DNA from: Ceratodon purpureus
Taxonomy: Eukaryota > Streptophyta > Bryopsida > Pseudoditrichales > Ditrichaceae
Assembly (NCBI GenBank): GCA_014871385.1
Contig: CM026426.1
Span: 22,581,474 to 22,645,473 of the forward strand
Direction: 5' to 3'
Length of the DNA stretch: 64,000 bases
The notes below the pieces were generated by a model. The model was given only the letters and a program-made list of their open reading frames with translations, did no database searches and was not told where the DNA came from. The stretch's first letter is position 1; each line of letters begins with the position of its first letter. Shown one piece after another: positions 4,261 to 38,900 of this stretch. The translations under genes were made by a program, and so were the position numbers.

Positions 4261-4463
4261 GCCGGTACCGGCGGTGCCCTTCATGCACCTTCTTTGTAAC
4301 TGCTGGTGCAATTCGCAAGCACGAAGAAATTGCATGAAAGGCAACGCCGGTACCGGCGATGCCTTTGCGGCCTCGGCCTGGCCATAGCAATGGTTGTCGA
4401 GGTAGTTCAGTTCAACCACTGCCATGTCCACGAAAGGGCAGTAAAGGCATCGCTGGTACCGGC
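4261..4463. repeat. GCCGGTACCGGC palindromes in a gene A intron
   Basis: Exact or one-mismatch copies of the 12-bp palindrome lie at 4261-4272, 4346-4357 and 4452-4463, with decayed relatives near 4170 and 4535. Flanks are usually GGCNNT on the left and GGTGCCTTTNAAGCACC-like on the right, making the symmetry longer than the core. They lie in the intron between the exons at about 4677 and 4116 of gene A. Confidence 0.85.
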
Positions 4464-6082: not shown

Positions 6083-7134
6083 GCCGGTACCGGCGGTGCT
6101 TGTGAGCACCTTTATAGTCACACAGAAGTCTGTCAAATTAGGTTGCTCCAAACGAACCGCCGGTACCGGCGATGCCCTCTGAGTACCCGGGCAGTCAACA
6201 AGCAGTTTCCTAAAAAGACCAGCTCGTCGACTGCAATGGAGCCCTGAAAGCACCGCCGGTACCGGCGATGCCTTTGAAGACCCTACTAGTCAATGAGAAG
6301 GCAAAGTGTACTGCCTTCTGTTTGACTGTAAGGGTCCTTCAAAGGCACCGCCGGTACCGGCGGTGCTTTCAGACCACCCGCCAGTCAACGAGCTAGTCTT
6401 CGAAGGTACTTGCTTGTTGACTGCCCGGGTGCTCTGAGAACAACGCCGGTACCGGCGGTGCATCCGAAGCACCTTTAAAGTCACAAAGAAGGCCTTTTCT
6501 TAGCCTTCTGTTACAATCGAGGTGCTTCGGATACACCGCCGGTATCGGCGGTGCATTCAGAGCAACCATGGTGTCGACAAGCAGGTTGCAACGTCAACCT
6601 GCTCGTAACTGCCTGGGTGCTCTGAGCGCACCGCCGGTACCGGCGGTGCCTTCGAAGGACCCTTACAGTCTCAGAGTAGGCTAACAGGACAGCCTTCTCT
6701 GAGACTGTGGAGGTGCTTCCGAGGCACCGCCGGTACCGGCGGTGCTTTCAGAGGACCCGGGCAGTCAACGAGGAGGTTAAAAAATAGCCTGCTCGTTGAC
6801 TGCTCGAATGCTCTGATAGCATCGCCGGTACCAGCGGTGCCTTTGAAGCACCTCCACAGTCTCAGAGTAGGCTTAGTGGACATCCTTCTCAATGAATGTG
6901 AAGGTGCTCTAAATTCACCGCCGGTACCCGCTGTGCTTTCAGAGCACCCGAGCAGTCAACGAGAAGGTCGTCGAAGCAACCTGCTTCTTCACAGCTTGGG
7001 TGCTCTGACTGTACCGCCGGTACCGGCGGTGTATTCGAAGCTCCTTAATAGCAGTCACGCAGATGGAAAAAACAAGATATGAACAAACAGAAAACATAAG
7101 AAAAGGGCGTACAAATAGTAACGCCAGTACCGGC
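6083..7134. repeat. regular array of 12 GCCGGTACCGGC palindromes, ~95-bp spacing
   Basis: Cores start at 6083, 6159, 6255, 6350, 6445, 6538, 6633, 6729, 6824, 6920, 7016 and 7123, giving spacings of 76, 96, 95, 95, 93, 95, 96, 95, 96, 96 and 107 bp. Most are exact; a few carry one change (GGTATC at 6538, CCAGC at 6824, CCCGC at 6920, CCAGT at 7123). Each interval is itself an imperfect inverted repeat, alternating between stems containing CAGTCAACGAG and stems containing CAGTCTCAGAG or CAGTCACAAAGAAGG. The array fills the gene A intron between about 7177 and 6080. Confidence 0.9.
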
Positions 7135-8157
7135 GGATGCTAAAGAGCCAGAAACAGTAAGTTGAAAGATGCTCACTTGAGCCCACCAAGTAGCCTTATG
7201 TAGCCAAGGCAGAAATACCGCGTCCAAGAATCCACCTTTCGGAAACTTGTGGGCAACCCTGATTGCCTCCGAGGAGTTCCATCTCTGGAGCCACTTCACC
7301 ATCATTGATGCTGGCATGGCAGAGGTCGCCAACATCCACAGCTTCTCCTGCTGCATCTCAGGCTTATCATCTGCCTTCTGATAGTGTAGCTTAATTTCTT
7401 CAAGAAATTTGGAGGAGTGCTTCGGGTCTGCGATTGGTAACATCTTCCTCAATTCCCCCGCTCGTTTATCCTCCACCCTCTGAACCGCCTTTGTGACCCA
7501 TTCATCTGCTGAGCGTTTGGTCCACTGCCTGGGTTGGGATTAGCCAACTGATAACGCTGTTGGGCTGCGTGAGCTGCCTCCCCGATCTCGTGCTGCAGGC
7601 AAAATTGAAACAAAAAATAATATCAATTTTAAAGTCATAATAAGGGTCTGGTTTAAAACTAGGTCAAAACAGGGTTATAAATCTTCGCACCTGATGCAAG
7701 ACCGCGTTCAGGGCTTCAACAGACAGTGTATACCCGGTCCGATTCTTTCCAGGCTGCTTTTTCTTTGCAGCATCGATGACAGACCGAGAAACAAGCCCTT
7801 CGAAATACTCCACAGGCTGAGGAGCTATGCCTGTGCACAAGGTTGGTAGAGACATGCGATTTTTGGTTTCTCCTGCAGGTTCACATCAATCAATTTCATG
7901 AAAAATCATATCGCGATAAATTGTGTACTAACAATTGAAGAAAAAATCAAATCGCTCCTTACCAGTTCACTTTGCGAAGGGCTGTGAGCACCGATGGAAT
8001 TTCACCCTTCGGGTCGAGGACAACGCTCTCAACTCGGTAATCCCAATTAATGTCACCAGCATGAAATTGCTCAATAATCGGCAACCAAGCCTGCAACCTG
8101 TGGTTTCCATCCCATACCATAAACATCTTCTTCGAAAAGACCTTGAGATCATCGTCT

Positions 8158-8162
8158 GCAAG
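8158..8162. other. 5-bp target-site duplication of the LTR element (left copy)
   Basis: GCAAG here precedes the TGTGG end of the LTR element. The second copy is at 11240-11244, immediately after the ...CTACA end, and is copied again at 25736-25740 as part of element 1's own duplication. Confidence 0.8.
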
Positions 8163-10120: not shown

Positions 10121-11239
10121 AAGAAGGAACGGATGGATGGAACCCGGCACAGTCCCCGGTTCGATAAGAACAAGGAGTAGAAGTTAGGATAAGGACCGGA
10201 TAAAATGGCAGCGACTAACGATGGGGCTCAAGTGCACCCGGCTGCCAATCCGGATAGATAGCGGCAGTAACTAGGAATAGAAGGCGGCCACCGGTCCGGG
10301 ATTCCTAGATCCAAGATCCGGAAATTCTGGATCTCGGTGGGCCACTTGGTCACTTTAGGATCAATAGGTTTTAGTATTTAAGCTGGACGTTTTTCAAAGG
10401 CCGGGGCCTTGTTTTGTACGCCGTTTTGTTGTTGCAATTGAGAATATACTTTTCGGATTTGTTGTGTCGACTGGCTGCTGACGGGTCCGTTGCCGTATGG
10501 TTTGTTGGTACTATTGTCCCCAGTAGTGTTCCGGAGGAGTGTTGAACAGTAGGATAATCTGGAGAGCGCCCGGAGAGACTGGGGAGGTGTCAAGCGTCGA
10601 GTGTTGACGGTTTCGAGTTCCGGAAGGAGTCCGGAGGGAAGGATAGACGTACTGCAGCAAGGCTGGTAGTCTCAAGGACACGGAGGGCCGTGTGTACACC
10701 GGGATCCGGAAACGGACCGGTCGCTTCCTGTAGATGGGATAAAAGCCGGATGTCCTACTGCGAACCAATCCGGAAGGGAGATAATATAGTTAGAATACCG
10801 TGCAGCCGTAAGGTGATGTCATTGTAGTATGATTTCCGTATCCATAACCGGCACTGAGTAGCTATCCGGACCGGTACCTAGCCATAGGGAAGGATTATTA
10901 CTCCACTCTCCGGGTGGTAGATAGGAACAGTGGGGTGTCCAGCCACTTTAAGTCACGGGACGGTGGAGAATCCAGCCACTTGAAAGGATAGACGGATTAG
11001 TGGGAACCAGCCACTAGTCTAAGAAGCCGGAAAAATAGGAACGAGGCAAAAACTACTGGATGAGGCCAACCGGTCGAGAGACGAAATACGGTTGGATCCG
11101 GGTGGTGACTTTCGTTATGATCTAAAAGGAGGAAAACTATAGGTCTTCGTGGGAACGAACACGGAGTGATTTACTTTGGAGGGTATTTAGTGTGAATTAA
11201 GTGCCTTCCGGAGGAATACGGATACCACGTCGTGCTACA
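10121..11239 (+). other. non-coding 3' part of the LTR element
   Basis: No open frame of note lies on the plus strand. The stretch is rich in CCGG tetranucleotides, as is the whole element. Confidence 0.5.
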
Positions 11240-11244
11240 GCAAG
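11235..11244. other. 10-bp target-site duplication of element 1 (left copy)
   Basis: CTACAGCAAG here is repeated exactly at 25731-25740. It spans the last five bases of the LTR element (CTACA) and the LTR's own GCAAG duplication, so element 1 inserted across the LTR/host junction. A 9-10 bp duplication is typical of MULEs. Confidence 0.85.
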
Positions 11245-11255
11245 GGACGTAGCTT

Positions 11256-11298
11256 GTACGTGAGCGGAGAGCGTAGAGCGGAGAGCGGTGAGCGCAGA
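11256..11298 (+). repeat. left terminal inverted repeat of element 1
   Basis: It matches the complement of 25677-25719 over all 43 bases. It is built from short GAGCGGAGAGCG-like repeats, and related GGAGAGCGGAGAGC units continue to about 11321. Confidence 0.9.
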
Positions 11299-11739
11299 TT
11301 TGGAGAGCGGAGAGCACAGAGTGGGGGACAGAACCTAAAAATAGCACTTTTTTTACTAAAAATAAAATATAAAATTAGAAGATTCGAATATTCTCAGTAT
11401 ATTTTTGGAAAAATACTAATTTTAGTAATTGTATTGATCCTATAACCGTGGAATAATTACAGTGTTTTCATTGAATTTGTAGTTCGTTTTCTCTTTTTTT
11501 TTATGATTAATTTTTTAACGTGCACCAATTACTATGCTCCAGCTCCTTCTAACTAGTTTAGGCATACATTAATTCCCTTTATCTCCTCAAATTTATATGC
11601 AAATTACCGCATAAAATGTATTGGTATTAAAGCTCTTAAGAGGGATAAAGTAACATTTAATATCGTAACAATTTCTTAACATTGTTAGAAATCATCCGCC
11701 ATGGTCTACATGGTTTATTTCTTTTATTCTTCATATTAA

Positions 11740-12484: not shown

Positions 12485-12937
12485 ATGGAAGACGTCAGAG
12501 ATATTGTTGTTTCACTTGCTGACGATGTTTGTCCATTTCAACCATATGTTGAGGTGGAGGACGAAGAAGAGGTGATGGCCAGCAGCCAAGGGCGTCCTTT
12601 AACAACGGATGTTGACGTGCAACCGGATGTTAGAGCTGACCCTCCACGTTCAGAAAATTCGGATGATATCAGAGTGCTGGAGGAGGACGCAGATGTGCCT
12701 TTGCAACCTCATGCATACTCCAAGGTTGGAAAGATCCCAAGGGGAACCTATTCCAGGGAATCAGTGAATCGGAGGCGGGGAGGTGGGCCATTGCTGAAAC
12801 GATCATACCAAGGACACGCTCCAAGTGTGGGAACGAAAGTGAATGCGAATGTAGTTTGTCCTGTAGTACAGTCAGAGGTTCGGAGCCCTGCTGATACTGT
12901 AGTGGGCAACCCTAAACGTGTTAGGTTCGAAGATTAG
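12485..12937 (+). CDS. MULE accessory protein, 150 aa, conserved between elements
   Basis: It starts at ATG 12485 and ends at TAG 12935-12937. I do not recognise a known domain. A homologue of the same length lies at the mirrored place in element A (30391-30843). Shared parts are an acidic N-terminus with VEVE(D/G)EEE, a core PHAYSKVGKIP-GTYSRE, then NANVVCPVVQ/NVNVACPVVQ, and a basic-aromatic end PKRVRFED/PKRIKFKE. The C-terminal KRVRF/KRIKF fits the RVxF docking consensus of protein phosphatase 1, though so short a motif may be chance. Conservation in two elements that otherwise differ greatly argues that it serves the transposon. It is convergent with the transposase. Confidence 0.7.
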   Translation: MEDVRDIVVSLADDVCPFQPYVEVEDEEEVMASSQGRPLTTDVDVQPDVRADPPRSENSDDIRVLEEDADVPLQPHAYSKVGKIPRGTYSRESVNRRRGGGPLLKRSYQGHAPSVGTKVNANVVCPVVQSEVRSPADTVVGNPKRVRFED

Positions 12938-13191: not shown

Positions 13192-16100
13192 CTACTTCTT
13201 CGCCAAGGGGTGACGCAAGATTCCACTCTCTAGGAGAAGCTTGACCTCGTTGAAGCTAAAGGTAGGCGCATGGATGAAAAGCTCGGCTTCGGGATCGCGG
13301 TTGCAGACCTTCAAGAGTATGTAGTAAAGGTGCTTACAATACGTGAACTGAGTCCTGCCTTTGAACGAAGTCATCGTCTTCTTGAATGCTGGGCAAGTGC
13401 AACCAGGGTAAGAACTGATGGTAATCTGGTAACGTGTGATGTGAGGAGCGACGCCCGAATCCAGCCCAATGATGCAACCGTGGCCCGGCTCAGGTATCAT
13501 GGTGACGGAACGGAGGCGCGCTTTGAGAGACTCGGAGGAGCCCATGGATAGTCGCTGCGCCGGATTGGGACGAGTGGCAGTGCGCTTCACCATCTTGCCG
13601 TCTCTCTTGCCTGGGTAGCGGTCAGCGTCTGCAGGGACTGGCACCGAGTTGAGATTCGCAGGGGGCGGGGCAGAGGAGAAGAGGCGTCTTGGGGAGACCG
13701 GCTTTTTAGGCGGAAGTTGAAAGCCTGCTGCTTCGAGGGCAAGAATCTCAGTCAGTTTTAGATTAGTACCTAGTTTCACTGGCCAGACCTCTGGAATGGA
13801 GGGGAATTTCTGGTCCTTTGAGTAGTGCGCTACCCACTTGCGCTTAGAGCCTTTCACGCAGCGCTCAATATCGTCGGAGCAGAAGAAAAACTCTGTCTTC
13901 TCAACAGTGTTCCTGCGATAGTTAGTCCACAGCCCAGTGTAGGTCGGTGCAGCTGTGCAATGGGGCCCTCTGACGATTCTCTCAGTGCACTTCTTCTTCG
14001 TTTCAGCTCTTTGGGCCCAGCAGCACTTTGCAGAAAGTTTGTGAAGTCTCGAAATGTGCCACTCCTTTACGTCCACCTTGGTTTCTTCAACGGCGTTGAC
14101 ATGGCGAATGCCGCCCTTGTTCACAGGTGAAGGTAAAGGGGAATGAACTTCCCGGGCAGGAGGTTGCGTACATTGTACCTCGGTGTCGTGTTCGGAGTCG
14201 TCTTCCTCAATGACGGGCATCTGCATAGGGCGAGCCCTGACGGCACGTCTTGGGCCTCTTGGGCGTGAGAAGTTTGTCTTGTCCGGGCGATGAGACTCCT
14301 CGTCAGCTCCGATAAGGACGTCGGCTTTTCGCTTCTGTGAACCGAACACTTCCGCTCCAGGCATGATAGGCTGACGAGTGCAGAACTCATCCGCGCCTGG
14401 CATATCGAGCATGGGCTTGTCGAGCACTGTAGGATTTCCCCATTTCTTCGCGTTGCGTTCAGCCATCCGGAGCCTGAGTTCCTTCTTGGATGGTCCTGTT
14501 CCGCCGACGTCACCTTTGAGGAACTGGTAGTAGTTGACAACCTGTAGAAAAGCCCGAACGAAATCGTCCACGGTAGCAACGTACAGGTCGTTCCCATTGT
14601 TTCCTGAAGCTTGGAGCCACTTGTTGTGAACTGTTTCGGCGAGGTTACAGGTGGGCATCTCTGTGAGTTCTTCTTTCGTGAATTTCTGCAGATTTGACAG
14701 TAGGTGCCGTTAGATTCACGGATTACAGGTTTCTAGGTTAGGGCGAGGAAACCAGTATCAAAAACATCAAAACAGAGTGCAGAGATAATACCTCGGTCAT
14801 GAATCCCCCCCACTGGCGGAAGCGGTGGTGCCAGAATGACAGCCACTGATCGAGTTTTATGAGCCCGCTCTCGCCAACGACCCCGGTGGATGCCCACCAT
14901 GCTCGCAACGCGTGGTACAGAGTTTCCGCCTCTGCCATGCTGGTCGCATTCTTGTACTGAGTGCACATCTTCTTGTGCTGTTCCCAGAGTTCTTCGGGGA
15001 AGTGCTTCTGCGTATACGCCACCATGTTTTGAGTCCAGTGGAACAAGCACGACCTCTCCCGGTCCTCCATTGGGTCTTCTTTGTTGCCATTGCCGTAAAG
15101 GATTCGCACTGCATTCCAATTCGCCTGTGCGTTATCCGCCATGAACCCCTTGAAGTTCGGCGCTGCAACGCCATTGATCTCCATGACCAGGTTCAGGTTT
15201 TTCCAGAAGACGAGCTGGGCGTCCGTGTCCTCGGACTGCATGTCGCAAGTGGCGATTGTCATCACGCGGCAGTAGGTGGCGTCGTACACATGGCACGCCA
15301 TGGTCGACCAGTCTTTGACGCGTTTGACATGGTCGAACATGATCCATGCGTTCTCCAAGTCGCCACCAGCTTGCATACGGCTGACCAAGTCGACACCACT
15401 TCCCGGCCCGACCTCCGACATCTTGAAGACGAAGACTTTGTCACGCATAGCTCCCTGACCAGGAAACCTATTCTCCTGGACATACGCCCAGAGACTGTTA
15501 CCACGGAGCTTGGTGATACCGTCCATGATTCCGTACCTGTTGAATTTTTTGAAGGTGGCGACTTTGTTGCGGATGTTGGGCGACGCCATGTCTTTGCATC
15601 GATCCAGAACAGGAACCAGCTCCTCCATCGTCAGCTTCCTCGGTGGTGCATCCTCGGGCTGTAGGAGGTAGCTCCCGATGAGGAGTTTGCTCGCCTCCAG
15701 GACAACGGCGCTCTTTGTTGCTTTGTTGTTCATCTCTACCTGCTCTTCTATTAAGCTACTAATCTCTGCTTTAGAGTCTCTGTAGTCTCCTACTTTCACT
15801 GGATGATGATGTGTTCCTATGTGAATACACGCTCTAGTCTGATTCGGTTTGCCCACAACGTAATAAATCTTAGCCTCGCATGTAGCTACACATGATGGAG
15901 GTTCTTTACATACCTTGCACACTAGCGTCGAGTCAGATGGAGGAGGCTGGTCCATGACAAAAGCTTGCAGGGTACAGCCTTCAAACTCAGTCTCGTTAAC
16001 CTCGAAGATCTTGGGAACACGCTTGAGGAAGTCACACTCCACTTTCGTGCAACGCAACCATCCGACGCAGGTGGAACTTCGGAAAGAGAGTCCGAAGTCG

Positions 16101-16883
16101 TTTTTGATGTTTGTTGTGATGGTCTTGGTCCACAAGTGTCCGTCGTATCGTTTATCCATTCCCTGCATAGACTTGGCGGCGAGCTTAGAGGATCCTGCAG
16201 CAGCTGGAGGCAACTCAAATAGAACCGGACCATCAAACTTCGCAGGCAAGTACTCTACTCTCTCGTGTCTAATAGTGGAATAGTCTATCTTCTTCAAAAT
16301 GTTTTTGGACCCACGCGTCTTAGCAATCTCTTTAAGGAGCGGAACAATGCTAATTGTGACCTGGGACAATGGAGGTGAGACATTGGAAGGAGGAGCATCA
16401 GCGTGGACCTTGGGCACCAACTTGACGGGACTGACTTCGTCGTCAGAAGAGAGAGATATGACGGTCGGAGGAGGTTTCTCTACATCTGAAGTCTCAGTAC
16501 CAGGCTCGACTTTGACTTTGACATCACGAGGTAAGGGAGTCTGAATTGTGCATGTAGAAGAGCGACGGGGGGGTGAGGATCTCAGTGGATGCAGCCATAA
16601 GAGAATCAGTAAGACCATAGACTCTATAGGATCCAGGGAGGAGTCTCCACTGCAACATGTTGTTCTCATCTCTCACTGAAGGTTGCCCGAGAGTGTGGGT
16701 AACCTCGGCAGTAACGTCATCAAAGATCTCCTCCTCTATACTGATGGAATCCTCACGAAAGTGGAATCTGAGACTGAGGCGAAGAGAGGACACCGTAGCT
16801 AGACCATCGTCATCTACGCGAAACCTAAGAGGGATGCCCATGCCTTGGGCGTACAGACAGACCATCCCCATATTCGCAGGCAA
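13192..16883 (-). pseudogene. MULE transposase with N-terminal Cys/His zinc finger and C-terminal SWIM domain
   Basis: There are two exons on the minus strand: 16883-14792 (ends ...GGFMTE, donor GTATTATC) and 14685-13192 (acceptor CTGCAG), joined in phase. A Cys/His cluster (WLRCTKVECDF ... ACIHIGTHHHP) around 16060-15800 resembles the WRKY/GCM-type DNA-binding fingers of MULEs. The DDE catalytic core follows (WSTMACHVYDATYCRVMTIA, then FKGFMADNAQANWNAVR). The second exon has TCNLAETVHNKW and the SWIM motif CTCPAF...YCKH. The N-terminal frame (MPANMGMVCLY...) joins the rest only after a 1-base shift at a C7/G7 run near 16568-16574, so it is annotated as broken unless that is a sequencing error. 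Its partner, the methyltransferase gene, is divergently transcribed. Confidence 0.8.
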
Positions 16884-17668: not shown

Positions 17669-20600
17669 ATGAAGGAAAGTGGAGGGTCAGCTCCATCCAC
17701 TTATGTCACTCCTAGGCGTAGAAGAAAACCAGGTGGTACAGATTTTACTAACAGGAGATCGAGGAAGAGGAGAGAATTAAGTAGGAAGTCAAAGTCGAAA
17801 GGCAACCTCTTGAGTGTACCTCTGAAGGTTCGAGGAGCTGGGCTGCCTGTGGCAATTAAATTTTGTAGCATCCGTAAACTCATTCTAGAGTCCATAGTAG
17901 AGGCGGAAGATGAGGTTTTAGAGGATACCGCAGTTGAGCATGAGGAGCATGAAGTAATAAGTAGCGGAGAGAAACATCTGGAGATGACGGAAGAGCTAGG
18001 ATTGAATTGTAGTCCGACTTTGGAGACACCGCAACCTTCTTTCGGATTCAAGGAGTGTTCGACAGGAGGGACGGATTCTCAGTCGGGCGACCATGTTAAT
18101 ATAGATGTGGTAAGTTTCAGAATCCATCAATAAAAAGATATTAAATGTAAATTATAGTTCGTTTGAAGTAATGTCTTTGCTGCGGGTTCGTTGTTTTACT
18201 GTTTAGAATAGTGAAGCTGCATGAATCTGAACGGTTGTTCAAAATAAAAGTGGAGTAGCAAATTTCATCATAGTCCTAAACATTTGCGCAGATTGGCGAC
18301 TTGTTTAGGATTGAGCAAGACGTTGAAGAGGAGAAGACGCCAGAAGTGGGTACGGGCGAGGAGTCAGATCATGAGACCTTGAGAAAAGTCGCTAGGAGAG
18401 CGAGACGGCAAATTATGGAGGCGGGCGAAGGTGGGGAACTACTTGCTGCTACACGAGCGGGGCGAGGGCACCCTGGAAGTCCTACTGAAACTAGTGGGGA
18501 GGATGATCATTCGCTTGACATTGCGGGAAGTCCAGGTCCAGAAGTGGACATGGATAAGGGGTCGGCCCGAGGGAGAGGTCGAAAGTCCGAGGTGAGGGGT
18601 CGAGGGAGGGTTAAGGGTCGAGTTGGGAGAGGGAAGGCCTCTTTGCAAGCCCCATCGCAACAAACACCCGCGCCTACCTTACAGGAGAGAAGAGCTGAGG
18701 AGATGGCGGATCGTGGAGAGGAGCATGGAGAGGAGCGTCTGGAGGAGGCCACTGCGAGTGAGCAAGGCACATCGGACCGCGGCCCTGCCACCGAGGAGGT
18801 AAGGATTGGAGTTCGGGTTATGGGTTTTATTAAAATGTGGGTGTTGAGATTTGTTGGGCTTGTGTTTTTGGGTCATGAATGAGAGAGGGCTCGAGGCGCG
18901 AGTGCTTTAGAAGCATTGACCGCGAGGAAGATTGTGGTGGAGGAGAGGGAGATTGCGGTGCCAGCAGCCACTGCTGCAGAGAGCAAGGTGGCGGAGGCCA
19001 TGGCCGCGGCCCTCGAGGTCGGGCCTGAAGCATTGGAGGGAGATTGGGCGGAGGTTGCCCCGGGGGGAGCTGGCTGCGCCAAGGCGCATTCGGAGCCGAC
19101 ACTCCCCCTGGAGGAGAGGGAGATTGCGGTGCCAGCAGCCACTGCTGCAGAGAGCAAGGTGGCGGAGGCCATGGCCGCGGCCCTCGAGGTCGGGCCTGAA
19201 GCATTGGAGGGAGATTGGGCGGAGGTTGCCCCGGGGGGAGCTGGCTGCGCCAAGGCGCATTCGGAGCCGACACTCCCCCTGGAGGAGAGGGAGATTGCGG
19301 TGCCAGCACCCACTGCTGCAGAGAGCAAGGTGGCGGAGGCCATGGCCGCGGCCCTTGAGGTCGGGCCTGAGGCATTGGAGGGAGATTGGGCGGAGGTTGC
19401 CCCGGGGGGAGCTGGCTGCGCCAAGGCGCATTCGGAGCCGACACTCCCCCTGGAGGAGAGGGAGATTGCGGTGCCAGCAGCCACTGCTGCAGAGAGCAAG
19501 GTGGCGGAGGCCATGGCCGCGGCCCTCGAGGTCGGGCCTGAAGCATTGGTGGGAGATTGGGCGGAGGTTGCCCCGGGGGGAGCTGGCTGCGCCAAGGCGC
19601 ATTCGGAGCCGACACTCCCCCTGGAGGAGAGGGAGATTGCGGTGCCAGCAGCCACTGCTGCAGAGAGCAAGGTGGCGGAGGCCATGGCCGCGGCCCTCGA
19701 GGTCGGGCCTGAAGCATTGGTGGGAGATTGGGCGGAGGTTGCCCCGGGGGGAGCTGGCTGCGCCAAGGCGCATTCGGAGCCGACACTCCCCCTGGAGGAG
19801 AGGGAGATTGCGGTGCCAGCACCCACTGCTGCAGAGAGCAAGGTGGCGGAGGCCATGGCCGCGGCCCTTGAGGTCGGGCCTGAGGCATTGGAGGGAGATT
19901 GGGCGGAGGTTGCCCCGGGGGGAGCTGGCTGCGCCAAGGCGCATTCGGAGCCGACACTCCCCCTGGAGGAGAGGGAGATTGCGGTGCCAGCAGCCACTGC
20001 TGCAGAGAGCAAGGTGGCGGAGGCCATGGCCGCGGCCCTTGAGGTCGGGCCTGAGGCATTGGAGGGAGATTGGGCGGAGGTTGCCCCGGGGGGAGCTGGC
20101 TGCGCCAAGGCGCATTCGGAGCCGACACCCCCCCTGGAGGAGAGGGAGATTGCGGTGCCAGCAGCCACTGCTGCAGAGAGCAAGGTGGCGGAGGCCATGG
20201 CCGCGGCCCTCGAGGTCGGGCCTCAAGCATTGGTGGGAGATTGGGCGGAGGTTGTGGGGGAGGAGGAGGGGGAGGATGTGGGGGAGGAGGAGGGGGAGAA
20301 GGGGGCTTATTTTAAAAACAAGAAGAACTATATCCGGGGAATGAATATATTTAAATGTCAACTGTTGCTTTCTTCTTGTTGTTTGGTGTTTTCTGTTGAT
20401 TTCTTATTATTTGTTTTCCCCTTGTATTGTAGGAGGTCACAGAGCAATTCACTGCAAGTGACTTTGATGGCCCAACTCCAGCTGAAACTGAGGTAAGTTG
20501 TTGGATTTTGTCTTCTCAATTAAGAATAGCATAGAATTTTCAACCTCCATAGTCCTTTCTAATTTTCTTTTGAAAGCTTAGTTGGGAATCTGACAATGTC

Positions 20601-23600
20601 TTTGTTCTTTTTCTCTAGGTATTCTCAGATGCACCCTTGTCCATCAGTTCGCCGATCTCAGTGATCAATGTCTCCGACCTCTCGGATTCTTTTGATCAGC
20701 CTTATTTATGTAGATGTGATTTGGGCAGCCCTGTAGCTTTAGGTAGTGGACCTTTCGAGGTCCACTCTCCTCAGTACATGCCTACGTCTCCTGTCTACGA
20801 GCCTACATCCCCGGGCTACATGCCTACCTCTCCAAGACTTGGGACCCCGCCTATGTCTCCACCTTCTCCATCCTCGCCTATTAGAGTGAGGAGGCCAGCC
20901 CATGTTGTCTTCGCCCTCCCGGCGATACTGCCATGCCCTGTCCAGCAGACTAGGCGATTTTGAAAGAGGCACCGTCACTGGAACTGTAGACAGGCTAGGG
21001 AGTATTATAGTCGTGCACGACGCACATAGTGGCCTTAGCTCTACTTATTTCTGCTGCAGTCTGAGATGTACCAGTCTGCGAAGTAATTCTTATATTCTAC
21101 ATTATTGTTTTTGATTTGCTTACGTTCATTATCTTTGAATCAATTCTAAATACGTATGACGTTTGACAGGTAACTCAGACACAAACACAGGATCAGTTGC
21201 CAGCGCCATCTTGTCCGACTGAATTGACGAATGCAGTGGACAGTGAGTTGGAACACAGAAAACAATTCAAATTGGACTCTACAACCGTCATCAATGACCT
21301 CCGAATACTCCCAAAGACGAAGTCCCGTATGCTTGTACCCCTCTGCAGGATGCAGTCAATGGCAAGAGTGCGACCTGTAGGAGAAGTGGGAGTTCAACAT
21401 TTGGAGCGAGAGTTTGTCAATGGATATAGAGATGGTGACCGGGTCATGTACATTTCCATGTACAACCACGAGGAGATGACAGCGGAAGTCACGCCTGAGA
21501 TCAAGGCTGACTGGAGCCCTTGTTGGCAGAAAGTCAACGATGCTTTTGAGGATGAGCTCTTGGCCGATCCGGACTTGAAGGAGTTCTCCGGGAAGATGTT
21601 CTATGTCTGGGAAGGTAACCATCGCCTTGCCGCATGGTACAGACATATCAACAACCATCACTATGACGATCCAGCTTGGCACATCTCCGTGCATTGCATT
21701 GTTCTTGACCCCCGCGGTCATGTGGGAAACCTTCTTCATGTCATGCACGACATCAACTGGTAAGAATTTTTTCCCTACTTCTTGTCCCCACTTCTTGAAA
21801 GCTGGTTGTACTTCAAGGCTTTAACTAACTACCATATCTTCGAGCAGGTCTACAGAAAATGATCATGTGAAGAGTAATCTTCCTGCAAAACTCTTTCGTA
21901 TTCGCTCTTTTGGTGTGATGAAATTGGAGGAATTCAAGGATCTGCTCTCACCAGCGGAGTATCAAATATGTTTGAATCACAAACCATCAATTCCAGGATG
22001 GTTTACTTTGCCAACCAAAATCTTCATCGCATTTCTTTATCGTGTAAGCACTTCTTCCCCACCCCCCCTTACGATTCTAAATGTCATCAATTGCCGTGCT
22101 CTGTACACTCAGAAGTTGATATTGTTTATTTTCCAGAGAGAAATCGTGGCTGCTTCAGACGAAGCAGCGAGGATCTACAAGGAGAAGACACCCATTACAG
22201 AGCAAACTGCCGCAGGGGTTTGGGATGCTATGTCTGCTGCTTCGTCGGACATGATCAACTACATTAAGAAGAAGGACTTCACCAAGTACCTCGCCATTGC
22301 CAATCCCAAAAACGGTGATGACTTCCTCGCGGAGGTTAGTTTCTTCACATCTCTACTTTACTTTTGAATAAGTAATCTAAACACTAACCTTCCCGTTCAT
22401 GTAATGTTTACTTCCCAGATCAATCGGCATTACAGTGAATTCTCCAAGCCGGAGATGACAGTGGAGAAGCTTCAAAAGATTGTACCTGCAGCTGTTGATG
22501 CAAAGTTCAAGGCGCGTTGGCTGAGGTGGTGGAACTCTTCAGCAAGTGCACGACAATCTTACAGATTTTTGCCCCAGGACTTTAAGGAGGCCGACTTCGA
22601 CCCTTGGTTGAACAAGGCAACATTCTGGGCTGGGGTATAGTACCTTCGAACTTCGAAATAATTACAGATACTACTTCTTCTTTGTCCCATGTCAATATTT
22701 ACCTCAATGACTTTACCTTTCAATCGCAGATAGAGGATGCTGTTTCCCGAGAGTTTGATGACATCTGCAAGACCGAGAACGTTGTCATCAAGTGGAAGTC
22801 CTTCCCGGGACTGTTGCGGCCAGACGCATATGTGGAGAGTTGGCGTATTCTCCTTTGGGAAAAGGCTTTCCCCGCATTTATAAGTACCCGCGCAGAAAAG
22901 CCTTTTGATAAGAAGTCTGATTTTTCCACTTATCCGGGAGCAGCAGATGTTGTTAAGCGTGTGACATACCGGTATGACTTTTATGCACTTCGAATTTTTA
23001 TCTTTTTTTCTTTTTCGCTTTTATTTACTGTCAATACTATGATTCTGATTAATATGGCACATGATTTTCATTAGGTACTTCACGAGAGAGCTGCTTCCAA
23101 AAGGTGCAATTGACCCTGAGAAGTTGCCTTCATACTTCGCCTCGTGGATTCAGAGAGGCTCTGATCAGTGTATCTATACTCCTCTGCAGCTGAAGAGGTT
23201 CAGCTCTCCGCACCTAGCCGCTGGTTGTTGGTACCTCGATTGCATTCGAGGATTCGTTGTTGAGTCTGAAGCGGAGCTCAAAGCTGAGCTTGACGCGGGA
23301 TCAATAGCCATCGACGATTCTGGAGACGGTTCTGATGAGGCCGAAGGCCTCCAGGATCAATCATCTGCACCTCCACCGAAGAAAGGGCGGGGGCGGCGAC
23401 TGCGAAAGCTGGGTGCTACGTCCCAGGGCTCTCAGGAGACTGGTGCAGAGTCCTCCGCACCGGAGAAGGGCGTTGCCGTTCCATCTCCTGTGATTGTCGT
23501 TCCCAATCCGTCCCCTACTCCTGCCCCTTCATCGATCAGTGCATCCGCTATCACCAGAGGTCTTCTGGAACAAAGGAAGGCCAGACTTCTCCCGGCAAGC

Positions 23601-25186
23601 ACCTCCTCGGCTGGAACTCTCCATTCCACTGGTGTTTCTGTCATCAAGTCATCCGTGACCCCGTTACTGGTTCGTAACATGGAGCTCAAAGATAAGGGTG
23701 GCCATCCGGATTGGATGAAAACTCTAGAGTTCGTGCGCAAGGTATGAATCTCTTCTTACATAATTCGATATTACATACACATTCAATTAATTTCATATAG
23801 TCTAACCCTATAGCGTTGTTTCTCCAGTTTGGACGTGGCCGCCAGAACGAAGTTCCTGAGCGGTGCCAGGATGAGAATCATCTGGGAGTCGACTTGATCA
23901 TCGTTGACATCCCAGAGAATCTTCCTGTCCCTCTCGTTTCCGATCCTCCTACCGTGATTCCTCCTTGGAACTCTCGTGAAAAGGATTATGTGTACGACAT
24001 TTTCTATTTCGCAAGTCTTTACTTGCAAAATGATGGCGCTCTGTGCATCATCTACAACAATGATCAAGCGTTGGCTACGGAGATTCTTGAAGAAGCTAGC
24101 GCCACTAAGTTCGTCCTTTACAAAGACTGGTGGGGCTTCAATGAGCTCGGCCTGACTTCTCCTACGAACCCCGGAAACCTGGTAATTTCATCCTTTCCTT
24201 TCCTTCAGTTTACTTAGTACTATCCCTTCCGTTTATCCATTCTGACATAATTTGGTTGATTGCAGACTAATCGGTTCTGGATCCGGGTCTTCGTTCGTGG
24301 TGGCGAGCCGCCATCTAAGTTCTCCTTTCAAACGAAGAAATCCGATGTCATACATGGCGACCTCAACATTACCGAGAGTGATGCGATTTTCAACTTTATC
24401 GACGTTGATTCTCAGCAAATGAATGGGGATGTTCCATGGAGAGGGCCAAGGGAAAAATCCCCTGGGATGATGCAGAGCATAATTGGAGAGCTCTCGAAGC
24501 CCGGCGACATAGTCCTGGATTGGAAGGCAGGAACAGGTAACCGTTCTTACATGTCTCTACAGAATTATTTCTCTGATTCCTTCCTCAGTTTCTCACGTCT
24601 TCACCTTGCTTTGAGTTGCAGGGGCCTCTGTCAAGGCTTGCCAGGCTATTGGTCGTCATATTATAGCTTTTGAGGATGACGAAGCCATATTCAACGCCCT
24701 TCTCAAACCGTATATGGCAGCAAAATCTCCCATGGGCCCCGCTAAACATCCTAGACCGGCAGCAGCAGAGGAAGCACCAGCAAAGAAACAAAGACCCACT
24801 AAGTATTGTAAGTCTTAGTCTATGCTTTGTAGGTTTCGTGCAATACATCTAGTATTATTTCTGTACGCAAATTTACCTATTCGTTCTAACCACTTCTGGC
24901 TTTCTATTGCAGAGTAGTTGTGACAACACCGCCAAGTGGGCATAGAGCCGTGTTCACTCCATCGTGGCGTCTTAATTCCAGCCCGGTTCAGCCTTTTATT
25001 CTTCCGGACTATGCAGAGGGCTTAGCACAAGCGCTTCAATGTGGTGCACTTAGATATGTTCCTAGTCGGCCCACTAATTTTGATCCCAGGGCCCTTCTAT
25101 TTGTCGATGAAGAGGCTGTAGAAGGAGAGTCTGAGTCATCGGGTTCTGAGAGTGGAAGTAGCGACTGTAGCATCTTCGAAGTTTGA
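17669..25186 (+). CDS. ParB/Srx-like domain fused to N4/N6 methyltransferase-like domain, multi-exon
   Basis: Exons: 17669-18109, 18292-18798, about 18903-20260 (tandem repeats; edges unsure), 20433-20492, 20619-20960 (alternative, CTD-like), 21170-21759, 21848-22043, 22137-22334, 22419-22634, 22730-22971, 23075-23741, 23828-24181, 24266-24536, 24622-about 24807, and perhaps 24913-25186. From 21170 to 24818 every splice keeps phase with no stop, about 970 codons. The ParB-like part has LPKTKSRMLVPLCRM and MFYVWEGNHRLAAW. The C-terminal part has VDLIIVDIPENL where DPPY would be, and IVLDWKAGTG + ASVKACQAIGRHIIAFEDD, the motif I/GR pattern of N4/N6 DNA methyltransferases. Between them are about 450 residues I do not recognise. 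The N-terminus is basic, suggesting nuclear action. DNA binding or methylation at transposon sites is inferred. Confidence 0.75.
18951..20260 (+). repeat. eight tandem 171-bp (57-codon) repeats
   Basis: Units start at 18951, 19122, 19293, 19464, 19635, 19806, 19977 and 20148; the last is partial. They differ by only a few bases. Units 3 and 6 share CACCC and CTTGAGG variants, so a three-unit (513-bp) block seems to have duplicated. In the likely frame they encode REIAVPAATAAESKVAEA..., Ala/Glu-rich like the non-repetitive counterpart in element C. Since 171 is a multiple of 3, the repeat is open in five of six frames; the overlapping minus-strand frames of 440-480 codons are by-products. Confidence 0.9.
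20619..20960 (+). CDS. alternative exon with RNA polymerase II CTD-like heptads
   Basis: Following TCTAG, the exon encodes VFSDAPLSISSPISVINV and, at 20775-20837, three heptads YMPTSPV, YEPTSPG and YMPTSPR, then LGTPPMSPPSPSSP. This is the YSPTSPS pattern of the Pol II CTD. It ends at TGA 20961. The element C copy has TGG there and runs on about 21 more residues, rich in Arg, to a natural stop. The previous exon (20433-20492) and the next (21170) are both phase 0, so the exon can be skipped in frame. Used, it gives a short protein ending in heptads; skipped, it gives the ParB-methyltransferase protein. Gene A shows no such exon in the equivalent intron. Confidence 0.7.
24913..25186 (+). CDS. 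acidic C-terminal tail of the methyltransferase gene (frame link unclear)
   Basis: The frame from 24914 encodes VVVTTPPSGHRAV...YAEGLAQALQCGALRYVPS..., FDPRALLFVDEEAVEGES and a Ser/Glu tail ending at TGA 25184-25186. Similar tails exist in element C (39311-39526) and gene A (YDPTRCRFIDHSAVESEDE, ending at 3215), so it is probably translated. With the obvious donor (24808) and acceptor (after 24912) the joined codon becomes TAG, and gene A shows a comparable stop at its acceptor. A different splice, a separate start or stop readthrough is needed. Confidence 0.5.
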
Positions 25187-25676
25187 AAGAGGCCTTGCTC
25201 TATCATTGTTTCCATTTAATTTGATTTTATTTCAGTGGAGTTCATTACATACTGCATCGTCTACTCTATTGCAAAGCACTAGAATATTCATGATTCTCAT
25301 TTCCAGTTTATACTCGTGTATACCTTGCCTCCTTCATGTTCTGTGAAAGTTGTTTTTTTCCTTGTGCATTTACATAATTCTAGGGAAGAATTATTTGTTT
25401 GATCTAAAACTAAACGCCTGATCATTGTATCTTGCCTAAACCCATGATAAATCTACCGGAATGTATGCATGACGTCATCATGACATCAGCCCTAATTTGT
25501 ATCTTTGGTTACAAACGTAATAAATTCTTACCAGAGATAACCCTGATTTTCCACGGTAATATACTCTTTTCCTAAAAAAAGTGTCAAAATCAAGCCTTAA
25601 TTTAGTAATTTTCCACGGTCATAGGGTCTACTTTGCTTTTGAAAATTTTCCTAATTGTCAATTCTGTGCTCTCCAT

Positions 25677-25719
25677 TCTGCGCTCACCGCTCTCCGCTCT
25701 ACGCTCTCCGCTCACGTAC
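25677..25719 (-). repeat. right terminal inverted repeat of element 1
   Basis: This is the mate of 11256-11298. The eleven bases from here to the duplication (GAACTTTCCCC) differ from the left end (GGACGTAGCTT reversed). Confidence 0.9.
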
Positions 25720-26262
25720 GAACTTTCCCCCTACAGCAAGCAGGGTCGCTTCGAAATCCTCATTCACCTCTTTCCACTCTTTTGACCAAGATTCTTTGAT
25801 AGCAGGTGTGACCTCAGATGTGTGTCCGTGGTTATCCTCCAGTGCCACGTAAAAGTACCCATTGCCCTCCATGTAACCATCTCTTACGAAATGAACCTGC
25901 TGAGTCGATACATCATTCTTCAAGTACGGCCTTACTATGGGCAACAAAATCATACGGCAGAGAGGAATGAAGAGCCGGCCTTTGTTCTTCAGTTGCCATC
26001 GCAATCTCTCCAACCTCGACGCGGTGTTGACCGTCTGGTTCACAACTAACTCATGCAGCACTTGGTTTACCTCGCGCTCGGTCAAAGGTACTGCACAAGG
26101 TAAGAATTATTGTTAGTCCTTTGCGGAGCAATCACAGAATGACCATGTGCACCATCATAAACCCAACCCGACATCGCTCTTAACATCTGAATACGAAAGC
26201 CGACCAGTTAGGCATTAGGCCGGGGCCAAGGAGATTGACACAGTAGACTGCCCAAAAGCGAC

Positions 26263-31352: not shown

Positions 31353-31441
<89 letters not shown>

Positions 31442-32904: not shown

Positions 32905-35900
32905 ATGAAGGAGAGTGGAGGGTCATCTCCCTCCACTTATGTCACTCCTAAACCTAGAAGAAAACCAGGTGGTACAAATTATACGAACAGGAGAGCGAGG
33001 AAGAGGAGAGAATCACGTAGAAATGTGGAGTCGAAAGGTAACCTTCTGATTGCACCTCTAAAGGTTTGGGGAGGTGGTTTGCCTTTGGCTCATAAATTTT
33101 GTAGCATTCGTAAACTCATTTTAGAGTCTATAGTAGAGATAAAAGAGGAGGTTTTAGAGGACACCATAGTTGAGCATTGGGAGCATGAGGTTATAAGTAG
33201 CTCGGATAAACAGAAAGAGTTGACGGAAGAACTAGGGTGCAACTCCAGTCGGACTCTGGAGACACCACAACCTTCTTTCGGTTTTAAGGACTATTCGACA
33301 AGAGGGACGGATTTACAATCGAGTGGCCATACTAACTCGGATGTGGTAAGTTTCCTTCACAACTGATTTGAATATGCCAAATGTAGATTATGTCTTCTCT
33401 TGGGGTGTAACATAATAAATTTTATTTAATGTCCTCGTTGCGGGAATACTTTTTACTGCTTAAAAATGAGATGCCACATTAGCCCGAATGGTTTTTTAGG
33501 ATGATAGAACCATAAGTACTAATACTCGTCATCTTTCTTAAATCTTTGTGAAGATAGCCGATTGGTTTAGGGTTGAAAAAGAAGTCGAAGGTGAGAAAAA
33601 AGCACTAGTGGATGCAGGCAACGAGTCCGAAACTGAGACATTGAGGATAGTGGCTTGGAGAGCAAGACGCGAAATTATGGAGGCGGGCAAAGGTGGGGAG
33701 GCTATGGTTGCAAGACGGGCGAGGGGACCCAGGAAGTACATCTCAGAAGAGTGTGGAGGAGGACCAATCGCAGGGGAGTATTGAGGGCCCCGTAGACGAC
33801 AACGAGTGTGAACAGAGTGAGTTTGCCAATGGAGGCCGCGGTCAAGGTAGAGGGCGAGGTAGAGCGAGGCTAGGAGGGCATGGAGAGCGCCGGAGGCGAC
33901 TCGGATCGCAACGCAGCAAGGAGGGCAACTGAGGAGGTGAGAGATTGGGTGGGGGGAATTCGGATTTTTGTTGATAAAGGTTTGGTGATTGTTGCGAGAG
34001 TGGAAGTGGGGAATGCGAGGGTACAAGCAGTGAGAGCCGCGAGGTGTGAGGGTGTAGCTGCGAAGGAAAATGGTGCAAATTGTGAGTTGGGGTGTGCGAT
34101 GCTTGAAGAAGCCCGGGCCGCAAATTTTCAATTTTGGTTTGACGCCACGTCGGCTGCTATGGAGGAGGCCGCTGCGCCATTCGAGGAGGCCTCCATTGTC
34201 GAAGACAGGGAGTTGGATACACCCGTACTCGAGGCACCAGGTGTTGAGGACGCCGGAGCTCCAGTTGTGGAAGAGGAAACTGCTCAAACGGAGCAGGCTC
34301 CGGTTGTCGAGGAGCTGGAGCTTGCTGCTCCGGTCGAGGATGCTCGTGCAGCTGAGGAGGTGGCAGCTGCTTCAGACGTGGAGGCCCTTGCACTGGAAGA
34401 GAAGGAGGTGGCCGCCCCTATAGAGGAGGCACCTGCAAGTGAGGAGGAGGCACCCGCTGTTATTGAGGAGGCAGCTGGGCTATCGGAGGAGGCAGCTGCA
34501 GTATTGGAGGAGAGGCGTGTGGAGGCAGCCATGGCCGCAAAGGAGGAGGGGGATCCCTACAGGCTTTCAAAGCCGACACCCACTCAAGTGGTGGGTGTCA
34601 ATGTGGGGGGAGCGGATTCCATGGAGAGATTGGAGGAACCAATAGAAGGAGCCGCAAACATTGGAGGATTGGATGTTTGGTTTGCAACCCTTGCTTTCTA
34701 CTTGTTGCTTGGTGATTTTTGTTTAATTCTCATATGATGTACATTGTCTATGTTGCAGGAGTTCACAGAGCAATTCACTGCAAGTGAAGCTGATGGGCCA
34801 ACTTTGGCAGAAACTGAGGTACTTCAATTTAATTTGTATTTTGTATTGAGCTGAGCATTGTTCATCAAACTTCCTTAATTCTTTTTAATGTTGTTTTGTA
34901 AACTTAAATGGTAAATTGACATTGTCTTTGTTCCTCTCCTTCTAGGTATTCTCAGATGCACCCTTGTCGATCAGTTCCCCGATCACAGTGATCAATGTTT
35001 TTGATCTCTCGGATTCATTTGATCAGCCTTATTGTAGGTGTGATTTAGGAAACCCTGTAGGTTTAGGTAGTGGACCTCTCGAGGTCCACTCTCTTCATTA
35101 CATGCCTACGTCTCTTGTCTATGAGCCTACCTCCCCGGGCTACATGCCTACTTCTCCACGACTTGGTACCCCCCCGATGTCTCCACCTTCTCCTTCCTTG
35201 CCTATTAGAAATAGGAGGCGAGCCCATGTTGTCTTCGCCCTCCCGGCGATACTGCCATGCTTTGTCCAACAGACCAGGCAATTTTGGAGGAGGCGCCGTC
35301 ATTGGAACTGTAGACAGGCTAGGGAGTATTATAGTCGTGCACCACATACATAGTGGCCTCTGTACTACTTATTACTGCTGCTCATGATTGGGTTTTCAAA
35401 AGAGATGTATTAGTACGAGAAGCAATTGTTCTATTCTTCTTTATAACTGTTTATTTTCTTACGATCCTTGTCTTAAAATCAAGTCTAAAAATGTATGACT
35501 TTTGACAGGTAACTCAAACGCAGGATCTGATGCCAGCGCCATCTTGTCCTACTGATTTGACAAATGCAGTAGAAAGTGAATTGGTACATCGGAAATAGCA
35601 CAAAGTGGACTCCATAGGCGTCATTAACAACGTCCAAATACTCCCAAAGAGAAAGTCGCGAATCCTAGTTCCCCTGTACAGGATGCTCTCAATGGCAAAA
35701 GTGAGAACTGTTGGAGAAATGGGAGGTCTTTATTTGGAGCGAGAGTTTGTCAAAGGCTATAGAGATAGAGACCGGGTCATGTACATTTCCATGTACAACC
35801 ACGAAGAAAAGACAGCCGTTGTAATTGAAGAGATCAAGGCTGAGTAGAGCCCTTATTGGCTAGAAGCAAACAATGCTTTCAAAGATGAGCTATTGGCCGA

Positions 35901-38900
35901 CTTAGATTGGAAGGAGTTCTCTGGGAAGATGTTCTTTGTCTGGGAAGGTAACCATCGCCTTGCTGTATGGTTCAGACATATCAACAACCATCACAACAAA
36001 GATCCATCGTGCACATCTCTGTGCATTGCATTGTTCTACAACCACGCGGTCATGTGGGAAACCTTCTTCATGCCATGCACAATATCAACTAGTAAGAATT
36101 TACTCCCTCTATTTTGTCCACACTTCTTGCAAGCTGCTTGAAATTGTACTTTATGCATTTTATTGACTAACGTCTATTCGTACAGGTCTACAGAAAATGA
36201 TCACGTGAAGAGTAATCTTCGAGCAAAACTATTTTGTATTCGCTCCTTTGGTGTGATGAAATTGGAGGAATTCAAGGATCTGCTCACACCAGAGGAGTAT
36301 CAATTACCTTTGAATCACAAACCAGCTACTCCATCATGGTTTACCTTGCCAACCAAAGTCTTCATCGCGTTGCTTTATCGTGTAAGCACTTGTTCCTCCC
36401 TCCCTCACGCTTCCATTTGACAATTGATTTGCGCTGGTTTGTAAACTCACAAAATAATAACTCTGTTTCCCAGCGAGAAATCGTGGCTGCTTCTGACAAA
36501 GCTGCAAGGATCTACAAGGAGAAAACAACCACTAAAGACCAAACTGCGACTAGTGTTTGGGATGCCATGACTGCGGCTTCAAACAACATGGTCGATACCA
36601 TTAAGAAGAAGGACTTCACGAAGTACTTGGCCATTGCGAATCCCAAAAACAGTGATGACTTCCTTGCGGTGGTGAGTTGGTTAACATTCCTACTTTAATT
36701 GATCCATAAGTATTGCAATTTCAAAAAATTCATCTTATTCTGTATGTGATGTTTCATTCCTAGATCAATCGGCATTACAGTGATTTTGCCAAACCGGAGA
36801 TGACAGTGGACAAGCTTCAAAAGATTGTTCGTGCAGCTGTGGATGCCAAATTCAAAGCGCGTTGGCTGAGGTGGTGGAACTTTTCACCTAGTTCACGACT
36901 TTCTTACAGATTTCTGCCCCCAGAATTTAAGGAGGCCGACCTCGACCATTGGTTGGACAAGGCAGCATTTTGGACTGGGGTATAGTACCTTCAAACTTTG
37001 TAGTGAACACTATATGTACTCTTTCTTTGTCGCATATCTTTCTGGATCTTAACAACTTTACCTTTGTGTTGCAGTTGGAAAAAGCTGTTTCCCGGGAGTT
37101 TGATGACATCTGTAAGACCGAGAACCTTGTCATCAAGTGGAAGTCTTTCCCGGGAGTGTTGCGGCCCGACGCATATGTGGAGAGTTGGCGTATTCTCCTT
37201 TGGGAGAAAGCATTCCCCACATTCCTTAGTACCCGCGCAGATAAGGCTTTCGATAAGAAGTCTGATTTTTCCAAATTTTCGGTGGCTGCACATGTTGTCA
37301 AGCGTGTGACATACCGGTATGATTATCATGATTTACCTCTCTGTATTCCATTTACTTCTCCCTTTAATTCAACTTAACCAGTACGATTCTGATCTCTGAC
37401 ATTTGAACTTGATTAGGTAATTCAAGATAGAGCTGCTTGAAAAAGATGCAATTGACCTTGAGAAGCTCCCAAAGTACTTCGCTGCGTGGATTCAGAGAGG
37501 CTCTGACCAGTGTATCTATACTCCTCAGCAGTTCAAGAGGTACAAATCGCAGCACCTAGAAGCTCGATGTTGGTACCTCGATTGCATTTGTGGTTTCGTG
37601 ATTGAGTCAGAAGCGAAGCTTAAATCAGAACTTGATGGAGGATCGGCAGTTATCGAGGATTCTGGGACAGTTCAAATGAAGTTGAAGGTCTGCAGGATCA
37701 ATCATCGGCACCTCAACCGAAGAAAGGGAGAGCGCGGCGACTGCAAACTCTGGGTTGAAGTCCCAGGCCTCACAGGATACTCGGGCGGAGTCTTCCACAC
37801 CAGGGAAGGAGACACCCAACGCTTCTCCAACTACAAACGTCCCCAAGCCATCTTTGACCATTGCGAATGCGCCTTCATCCATAAGTGCTTCCAAGATCAC
37901 CAGAAGTCTCATTGAGCAGAGGAAGGCCAAACAGTTTCCTCAAACCACCTCGCGCGTTGAAACTTCACTTTCCACACATGTTTTTGTCATCAACTCATCT
38001 GTGGATTCGTTATTGCAACGAAATAAAAAGCTCTTTGCCAAGGGTGACGACTCAGAATGGAACAAGACTCAAGACTTCATTCGCAAGGTATGTTCCGTTC
38101 CTTAGACATTTCTTGGATACATACACTTCTATTAATTTTATAGTGTCTAACTCTACTTTCTTGTTTCCTTAAGTTTGGAGCAGGCCGCCAAAACGAAGTT
38201 CCAAACCGATGCAAAATGAGAACCATTTGGGAGTCGACTTGATCATTGCCGACATCCTTGAGAATCTTCATGTCCCTTTCATTTCTGATCCCCCCACCAG
38301 TATTCCACCTTGGAACTCTCGTGATAAGGATTATGTATACGACATCTTCCATTTTGCAAATCTTTACTTGCAGAATGATGGTGCTCTCAGCATCATCTAC
38401 AACAATGATCAAAAGTTGGCTACGGAGATTCTCGAAGAAGCTAAGGCTAGTGACTTCGTGCTTTACAAGGACTGGTGGGGCTTCAATGTACTCGGCCTGA
38501 CTTCTCCTACGAACCCCGACAACTTGGTAATTTCATCGTAACCATTCCTTCTCTTTACTTAGTGATAACCCTTCTGCTTATTTACACTCACATGTTTTGC
38601 TTGACTGCAGACTATTTGGTTCTGGATTCGCGTCTACGTTTGTGGTGGCGAGCCACCATCTAATTTCTCCTTCCAAACGAAGAAATTGCAGATGATACAT
38701 GGCGACCTCAACATTACCGAGAGTGATGCCATTTTCAAGTTCACCGATGTGGATTCGCAGCTTAGGAATGGGGATGTTCTGTGGAGAGGGCCAAGGGAGA
38801 AAGCATCTGAGATGATGCAGAGCATAATTGAAGAGCTGTCCAAGCCCGGCAGCATAGTCCTCGATTGGAAGGCAGGAACATGTATCCATTCATTACATGT

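Follow-up and report, generated by a model that had tools for sequence, protein, structure and literature searches.

Element 1, a transposon of 14,487 bp, lies in a stretch of the genome of the moss Ceratodon purpureus (C6:22581474-22645473; the whole of this 64,000-nucleotide stretch is referred to here as the window) and carries, beside its transposase, an accessory gene predicted to encode a ParB-like domain fused to a DNA methyltransferase fold. The accessory gene (+ strand) is transcribed divergently from the transposase (- strand), as a preliminary description of this DNA had proposed. With GT donors and AG acceptors at the junctions, ten exons spanning 21170-25186 splice in phase to give a frame of 1,062 codons plus stop, and N1, N2, N4 and an in-frame tandem repeat lie upstream on the same strand. 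The preliminary description had read an open frame of about 970 codons in nine exons, ending at 24818; the open frame holds, while the counts are revised and the tenth exon extends the gene to a stop at 25186. The features of element 1 are given below in window positions; dN/dS is the ratio of non-synonymous to synonymous substitution rates, and copy C is a second, broken copy of the accessory gene.

11235..11243, strand not given: left target site duplication, 9 bp, CTACAGCAA
11244..25730, + strand: element 1, complete Mutator-type transposon with target site duplication and imperfect inverted repeats of ~70 bp
11244..11320, + strand: left terminal inverted repeat
12485..12937, + strand: third small gene, with a homologue at 30391-30906 (- strand); no Pfam match (tested from 12482)
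13192..16672, - strand: transposase, whose exons 16672-14792 and 14685-13192 combine into a frame of 1,124 codons; start codon provisional
17669..18109, + strand: N1, basic N-terminal exon; dN/dS 0.36 against copy C
18292..18798, + strand: N2, N-terminal exon; weakly conserved in copy C (dN/dS 0.51, four stops)
18938..20263, + strand: 171-bp tandem repeat, open in frame; possibly retained in the messenger RNA
20433..20492, + strand: N4, small exon, phase 0 at both ends
20619..21029, + strand: exon with three heptads, YMPTSPVYEPTSPGYMPTSP, like those of the RNA polymerase II (Pol II) C-terminal domain (CTD); PF05001 at an E-value (E) of 6.4e-4, exactly at the cut-off
21170..21759, + strand: e1, ParB-like exon, GNHR at 21614-21625
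21848..23741, + strand: e2-e6, middle region and linker (e2 21848-22043, e3 22137-22334, e4 22419-22634, e5 22730-22971, e6 23075-23741); no Pfam match
23828..24802, + strand: e7-e9, methyltransferase-fold exons (e7 23828-24181, e8 24266-24536, e9 24622-24802); PF01555
24913..25186, + strand: e10, last exon, tail and stop; little constraint against copy C (dN/dS 0.81)
25661..25730, - strand: right terminal inverted repeat
25731..25739, strand not given: right target site duplication, 9 bp, CTACAGCAA

Element 1 has terminal inverted repeats and a 9-bp target site duplication, a length within the 8-11 bp given for Mutator-like elements (MULEs) (PMC6446971), and a copy on contig C13 is flanked by a different, perfect 9-bp duplication, CTCGTAGCT. 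The right end, TTTCCCC, was identical and the flanks differed in all four other copies examined, the left ends of three of these lying outside the stretches examined. The element 1 transposase gave no match to Pfam transposase families up to E 10, and a SWIM-like zinc finger near its C-terminus matched PF04434 at E 0.15, under the family cut-off; we use the label MULE tentatively, on the anatomy of the element together with this weak SWIM match.

Searches of the genome (362,488,568 bases in 151 contigs) returned 1,896 first-look candidates for the ParB-like exon, 1,706 for e7 and 1,893 for a 120-amino-acid core of the transposase. The 150 scored in each case were 84-100% identical for the ParB-like exon, 73-100% identical for e7 and, for the transposase core, 100% identical throughout. 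When the first 100 of the 150 matches in each of the two accessory exon lists were compared, 65 e7 matches were preceded on the same strand by a ParB-like match 1-6 kb away, with a spacing of ~2.4-2.7 kb by start coordinate in 64 of them, against none in the wrong order and one on the wrong strand. Across all 150 matches per list, a divergent transposase lay 3-13 kb upstream of 48 ParB-like exons, against one on the wrong side, none on the same strand and a chance expectation of ~0.2% per match. Unlinked matches may reflect the 150-match samples, broken copies or real separation. This linkage bears out the proposal that the GNHR exon and the methyltransferase exon belong to one gene. Recent spread follows from the near-identity of copies, and on these comparisons we judge that the transposon family holds hundreds of copies and is recently active; the mobile element originally described is upheld, having inverted repeats and, at each of two loci, a 9-bp duplication. 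The invariance of the transposase core beside ParB-like exons down to 84% is a separate observation, and may be explained by recent spread, by gene conversion or by a very strong constraint on the core.

The exon structure and splice sites are borne out by copy C, since exon identity between the two is 0.74-0.90 against 0.63-0.76 for the nine introns, and GT/AG is retained in C. The ParB-like part has a dN/dS of 0.28 against copy C, the middle 0.31, the two methyltransferase halves 0.23 and 0.32 and the whole protein 0.35, with an overall dS of 0.40 that equals the intron divergence (0.40). Among ten further loci fetched from the genome, four (L047, L048, L049 and L051) were used for the same measure, the near-identical L042-L046 and L050 being left out, and gave 0.11-0.25 for the ParB-like part, 0.15-0.22 for the middle and 0.23-0.30 for the methyltransferase part. 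The accessory gene is, by these ratios, under purifying selection, which indicates that its protein does something for the element.

The C-terminal domain of the accessory protein matches PF01555 (N6_N4 DNA methyltransferase) at E 1.8e-7 (31.7 bits against a cut-off of 26.7), and a paralogous genomic place, interrupted by one stop, spans positions 2-218 of the 221 in that profile. PHROG 3008 (DNA methyltransferases) was matched at 4e-11, and the best sequence matches in the PDB were the adenine methyltransferases DpnA (6.1e-5) and CcrM (0.005). In addition, 433 of 50,697 phage records matched at E<=1, each with <60% identity, and were counted toward the methyltransferase fold; five annotated as methyltransferases (L001, L002, L054-L056) appear, judged by length alone, to be short stand-alone enzymes, and a further phage match (L003) carries no annotation. 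On these matches the domain is assigned a DNA N6/N4 methyltransferase fold, which backs the methyltransferase-like domain of the preliminary description.

The catalytic motif is another matter, as that description had found a motif block typical of N4/N6 enzymes, whereas in this group DPPY is replaced by DIPE. At the motif IV position element 1 reads DIPE (23906-23917), copy C reads DILE and the copy first called element A reads DYPD, so that the (D/N/S)PP(Y/F/W) of PF01555 enzymes is absent from the window copies. DPPT at 23942-23953 was considered as the catalytic motif and ruled out, copy A having SRPG at that position. A codon pattern for DIPE in its context (D-L/F-I-I-x-D-I-P-E) was found at 667 exact places in the genome, with none in the control, and several synonymous codon spellings occurred among the 100 places listed. 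A second pattern, D-L/F-x-I-x-D-x-P-F/Y, was found at 32 places (control 0), which read DQPF, DTPF, DLPF or DQPY and in no case DPP. Both patterns fix neighbouring residues and the counts are lower bounds; the DQPF of locus L149, for instance, falls outside the second pattern. Five loci of this minority group (L004, L005, L008, L009 and L011) were traced upstream and all five have a ParB-like exon, the one upstream of L011 (L148) being broken and the motif of L009 being read in L149. Since the exon is present in both motif groups, which are ~40% identical in the ParB-like part, we conclude from this distribution that the fusion is old. The 667-place count and the dN/dS values lead us to infer that the DIPE change is fixed rather than a product of decay, and the dominant DIPE group is probably a pseudo-enzyme. 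In a rotifer amino-methyltransferase, changing SPPY to APPA abolished activity (PMC8885841).

The GNHR motif noted at the outset is present in e1, where it forms part of a box, VW[ED]GNHRL, common to all six aligned rows and invariant at V-W-x-G-N-H-R-L. Boxes of the form G-x-H-R or G-x-R-R are a hallmark of the ParB/Srx superfamily, and the moss box is of the G-x-H-R type in six of six rows. A WDGNHR pattern search of viral contigs identified an open reading frame (ORF), L136, with the same box, a match to HTH_ParB (0.0014) and a strong match to PF01555 (2.9e-35). When the segments preceding the motif in L136 and a bacterial counterpart, L141, were aligned to the moss profile, 46 columns aligned with 28% identity and none of 40 shuffles scored as well; two other sets, fam5 and mix, gave 0 and 1 of 40, over only 11 and 13 columns, respectively. 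The prokaryotic set was chosen by its DGNHR motif, making the high score around the motif circular; that score was not counted, and the stretch before the motif is the only independent one. Viral contigs gave no relatives of the ParB-like and middle region, and the ParB-like exon matched six phage records, at E 3-9 only. When relatives of L136 were sought, one viral locus (itself) and two bacterial loci were recovered, and its N-terminal part matched one phage record.

Between N4 and e1 lies the CTD-like exon, whose stop at 21027-21029 is kept in all ten copies of the alignment compared, element 1 having a private earlier stop at 20961-20963. Its dN/dS of 0.08-0.13 across the four copies is the lowest among the parts measured there. 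It has a counterpart in copy C at 34946-35353, and the stretch between the exon and e1 is 0.80 identical to copy C. Phase 0 is shared by the end of N4 and by the starts of the CTD-like exon and e1, which makes it likely, though unproven, that the CTD-like exon and e1-e10 form one gene with two alternative 3' ends. By the same phases, the promoter may also drive a second message that terminates in the CTD-like exon and would yield a short partner protein.

The window holds three copies of the accessory gene, each with GNHR and methyltransferase motifs, in agreement with the three (elements 1, A and C) first listed. Element A as a unit of its own was rejected, its ParB-like exon being completed by 25736-26106; it is one part of a split copy, here called copy A/B. 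The copies other than element 1 are as follows.

3216..8162, - strand: latter part of copy A/B, from the remainder of the ParB-like exon through the tail
25736..26106, - strand: copy A/B, opening part of the ParB-like exon; N-terminal exon to 28602 by eye
32905..39532, + strand: copy C, a broken accessory gene, with its right inverted repeat at 40983-41039

Copy C has both halves, five in-frame stops and several 1-base gaps. The insert that splits copy A/B occupies 8163-25735 and shows a duplication of 5 bp, GCAAG. Within it, a ~3-kb TG..CA element (8163-11239, duplication GCAAG, ORF at 8648-10120) lies inside copy A/B, the older copy that it disrupted, and element 1 adjoins its right edge. 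The outer insert was also considered as a pair of long terminal repeats and this was set aside, no direct repeat being found in the self-comparison or in 8000-12600. Copy A/B further contains an imperfect repeat array with a GCCGGTACCGGC core at 6140-7060 and, by eye, 26230-26620. At 29391-32249 the C-terminal part of a transposase and the third gene occur in reverse, ending beside copy C; this terminus resembles the left inverted repeat by eye, and the segment is possibly the left part of copy A/B. Elsewhere in the window, the ORFs at 47758-50936 look hAT-transposase-like by eye (one tested matched only CCDC71L at 0.16), an ORF at 44670-45038 resembles a cinnamoyl-CoA reductase-type reductase by eye, and 59654-60562 encodes an NLI/FCP1-like phosphatase domain (PF03031, 3.3e-13). 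An Rfam scan of the 64-kb window reached no gathering score.

MuDR of maize has a transposase gene (mudrA) plus an accessory gene (mudrB), the latter to our knowledge without a methyltransferase domain; element 1 likewise combines a transposase and an accessory gene, although in element 1 the two are divergent. We know of no ParB or methyltransferase fold in VANC, the accessory protein of the VANDAL transposons of Arabidopsis, and its likeness to the moss gene product, as a transposon-encoded accessory protein, would be one of role. VANC is a sequence-specific anti-silencing protein that acts on element DNA to the profit of the element (PMC5735166), and VANDAL is one of the Mutator groups (PMC6446971). 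VANC target sites often form tandem repeats, and for this reason a tandem array of 17-bp units close to the left terminus of element 1 (11673-12284) may be considered a candidate binding site. ParB-N6_N4 methyltransferase fusions are reported to be frequent in phages (PMC12704722). In the phage and prokaryotic fusions L136 and L141 a W-D-G-N/G-H-R box precedes a methyltransferase of the same family, as in the moss protein, but both keep DPPY, and L136 has a helix-turn-helix region, whereas the moss protein reads DIPE, extends further ahead of GNHR, includes a long middle region, is encoded by ten exons and belongs to a eukaryotic transposon. Retrotransposons of dinoflagellates and charophytes also carry DNA methyltransferase domains, but these are active C5 cytosine enzymes (PMC5890265), and N4CMT of bdelloid rotifers is a bacterial-type amino-methyltransferase in a eukaryote that differs in being encoded by the host, in having SPPY and a chromodomain, and in working against transposons (PMC8885841). 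The words 'plant' and 'transpos' do not occur in the main text of the ParB-fold survey PMC12704722; the Mutator group table of PMC6446971, in the rows examined, lists neither a ParB nor a methyltransferase accessory, and 'methyltransferase' is absent from that paper's text. The literature searched, judged by titles and abstract openings, contained no report of such a moss element or gene.

The reading that we put forward, at about even confidence, is that a large, recently active Mutator-type family has this as its accessory gene, and that the gene encodes a non-catalytic DNA-binding protein with a role like that of VANC for VANDAL or MURB for MuDR. Retention of the fold, together with the fixed loss of its catalytic aromatic residue, points to DNA recognition without methylation: the methyltransferase fold would recognise and grip the DNA of the element and, provided that the ParB-like domain binds nucleotide, this domain would load or spread the protein along the element, which would thereby stay competent for transcription or transposition through anti-silencing or the assembly of a transposition complex. 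Several observations weigh against this. Motif I (DWKAGTG, from 24518 and spanning the e8/e9 junction) retains D-x-x-x-G-x-G plus a later E in element 1, and S-adenosylmethionine binding may survive; the linker (dN/dS 0.36) and tail (0.81) are less constrained against copy C; at least one stop occurs in seven of the ten fetched copies (one each in L042 and L049, two each in L047 and L048, four in L051, and eleven and fifteen in L044 and L050, both frameshift-like); PF02195 (ParB_N) had no match at E<=1 in the genome, and none in the element 1 protein or its paralogues; the segment following the GNHR motif did not stand out from chance against the moss profile, 34, 25 and 11 of 40 shuffles scoring at least as high; and anti-silencing, transposition-complex assembly and copy control are indistinguishable from sequence. 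The PF02195 result also favours the view that e1 is not ParB, in which case GNHR would have arisen by chance in a plant domain unrelated to ParB, leaving the methyltransferase part alone as bacterial in type. Searches with the ParB-like part point the same way, giving only unrelated matches in the PDB (best eL24, 0.027) and nothing of known relevance in PHROG, NCBIfam and PADLOC, and even the comparison fusion L136 fails to match PF02195 at E<=1, HTH_ParB being its only ParB-type match. DndB was matched at 0.014 (0.010 when trimmed) in just one of seven paralogue proteins or pieces, but the GNHR region lies within that match, and DndB is named as a ParB-superfamily protein (PMC10853773); together with the invariant box and the 46 aligned columns before it, this makes the chance-motif view unlikely, and e1 is probably a ParB/Srx-superfamily domain. 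The ParB/Srx identity first proposed is weakly supported by the DndB match and the L136/L141 alignment, and is not recovered by direct family searches.

An active amino-methyltransferase, writing N6-methyladenine (6mA) or N4-methylcytosine (4mC) on element DNA as a transposition mark or against silencing, is possible but doubtful. DpnA and CcrM, the best PDB matches, are adenine methyltransferases, the minority group keeps an aromatic residue at its 32 places and in L149, and C5 methyltransferases encoded by transposons exist (PMC5890265). Of five pairs compared for the C-terminal half of that group, two gave dN/dS values of 0.20 and 0.14, one of these two including L010, in which the motif was not read, and the other three were saturated. 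However, none of the 32 places reads DPPY or DPPF, allowing that other forms may escape a pattern that fixes the preceding residues, and the dominant, amplified group is DIPE. A captured passenger gene with no function for the element would fit the tendency of Mutator-like elements to pick up fragments of host genes (PMC6446971), but is very improbable given purifying selection on the ParB-like, middle, methyltransferase and CTD-like parts, a frame open throughout in element 1 and three of the ten fetched copies (L043, L045 and L046), and an architecture unchanged in copies ~40% identical. A further reading, which we regard as rather improbable, is that the transposon family acquired a phage-type ParB-methyltransferase, which became an element-specific, self-loading DNA clamp; the D-x-P-F/Y minority would still methylate N6 or N4, the dominant branch would have lost catalysis and multiplied purely as a reader, and the CTD-like exon would attract the Pol II machinery of the host.

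Plant transposons are usually the targets of DNA methylation, and here a family of DNA transposons encodes a bacterial-type amino-methyltransferase fold, which selection maintains although the catalytic motif has undergone what appears to be a fixed change. Should the ParB assignment prove true, a possible nucleotide-switched DNA clamp would enter the biology of eukaryotic transposons. With near-identical, apparently intact copies, two motif groups and a moss host, roles in anti-silencing, self-marking and transposition would be separable by experiment, and 6mA or 4mC signals on moss transposons would be worth checking against this family.

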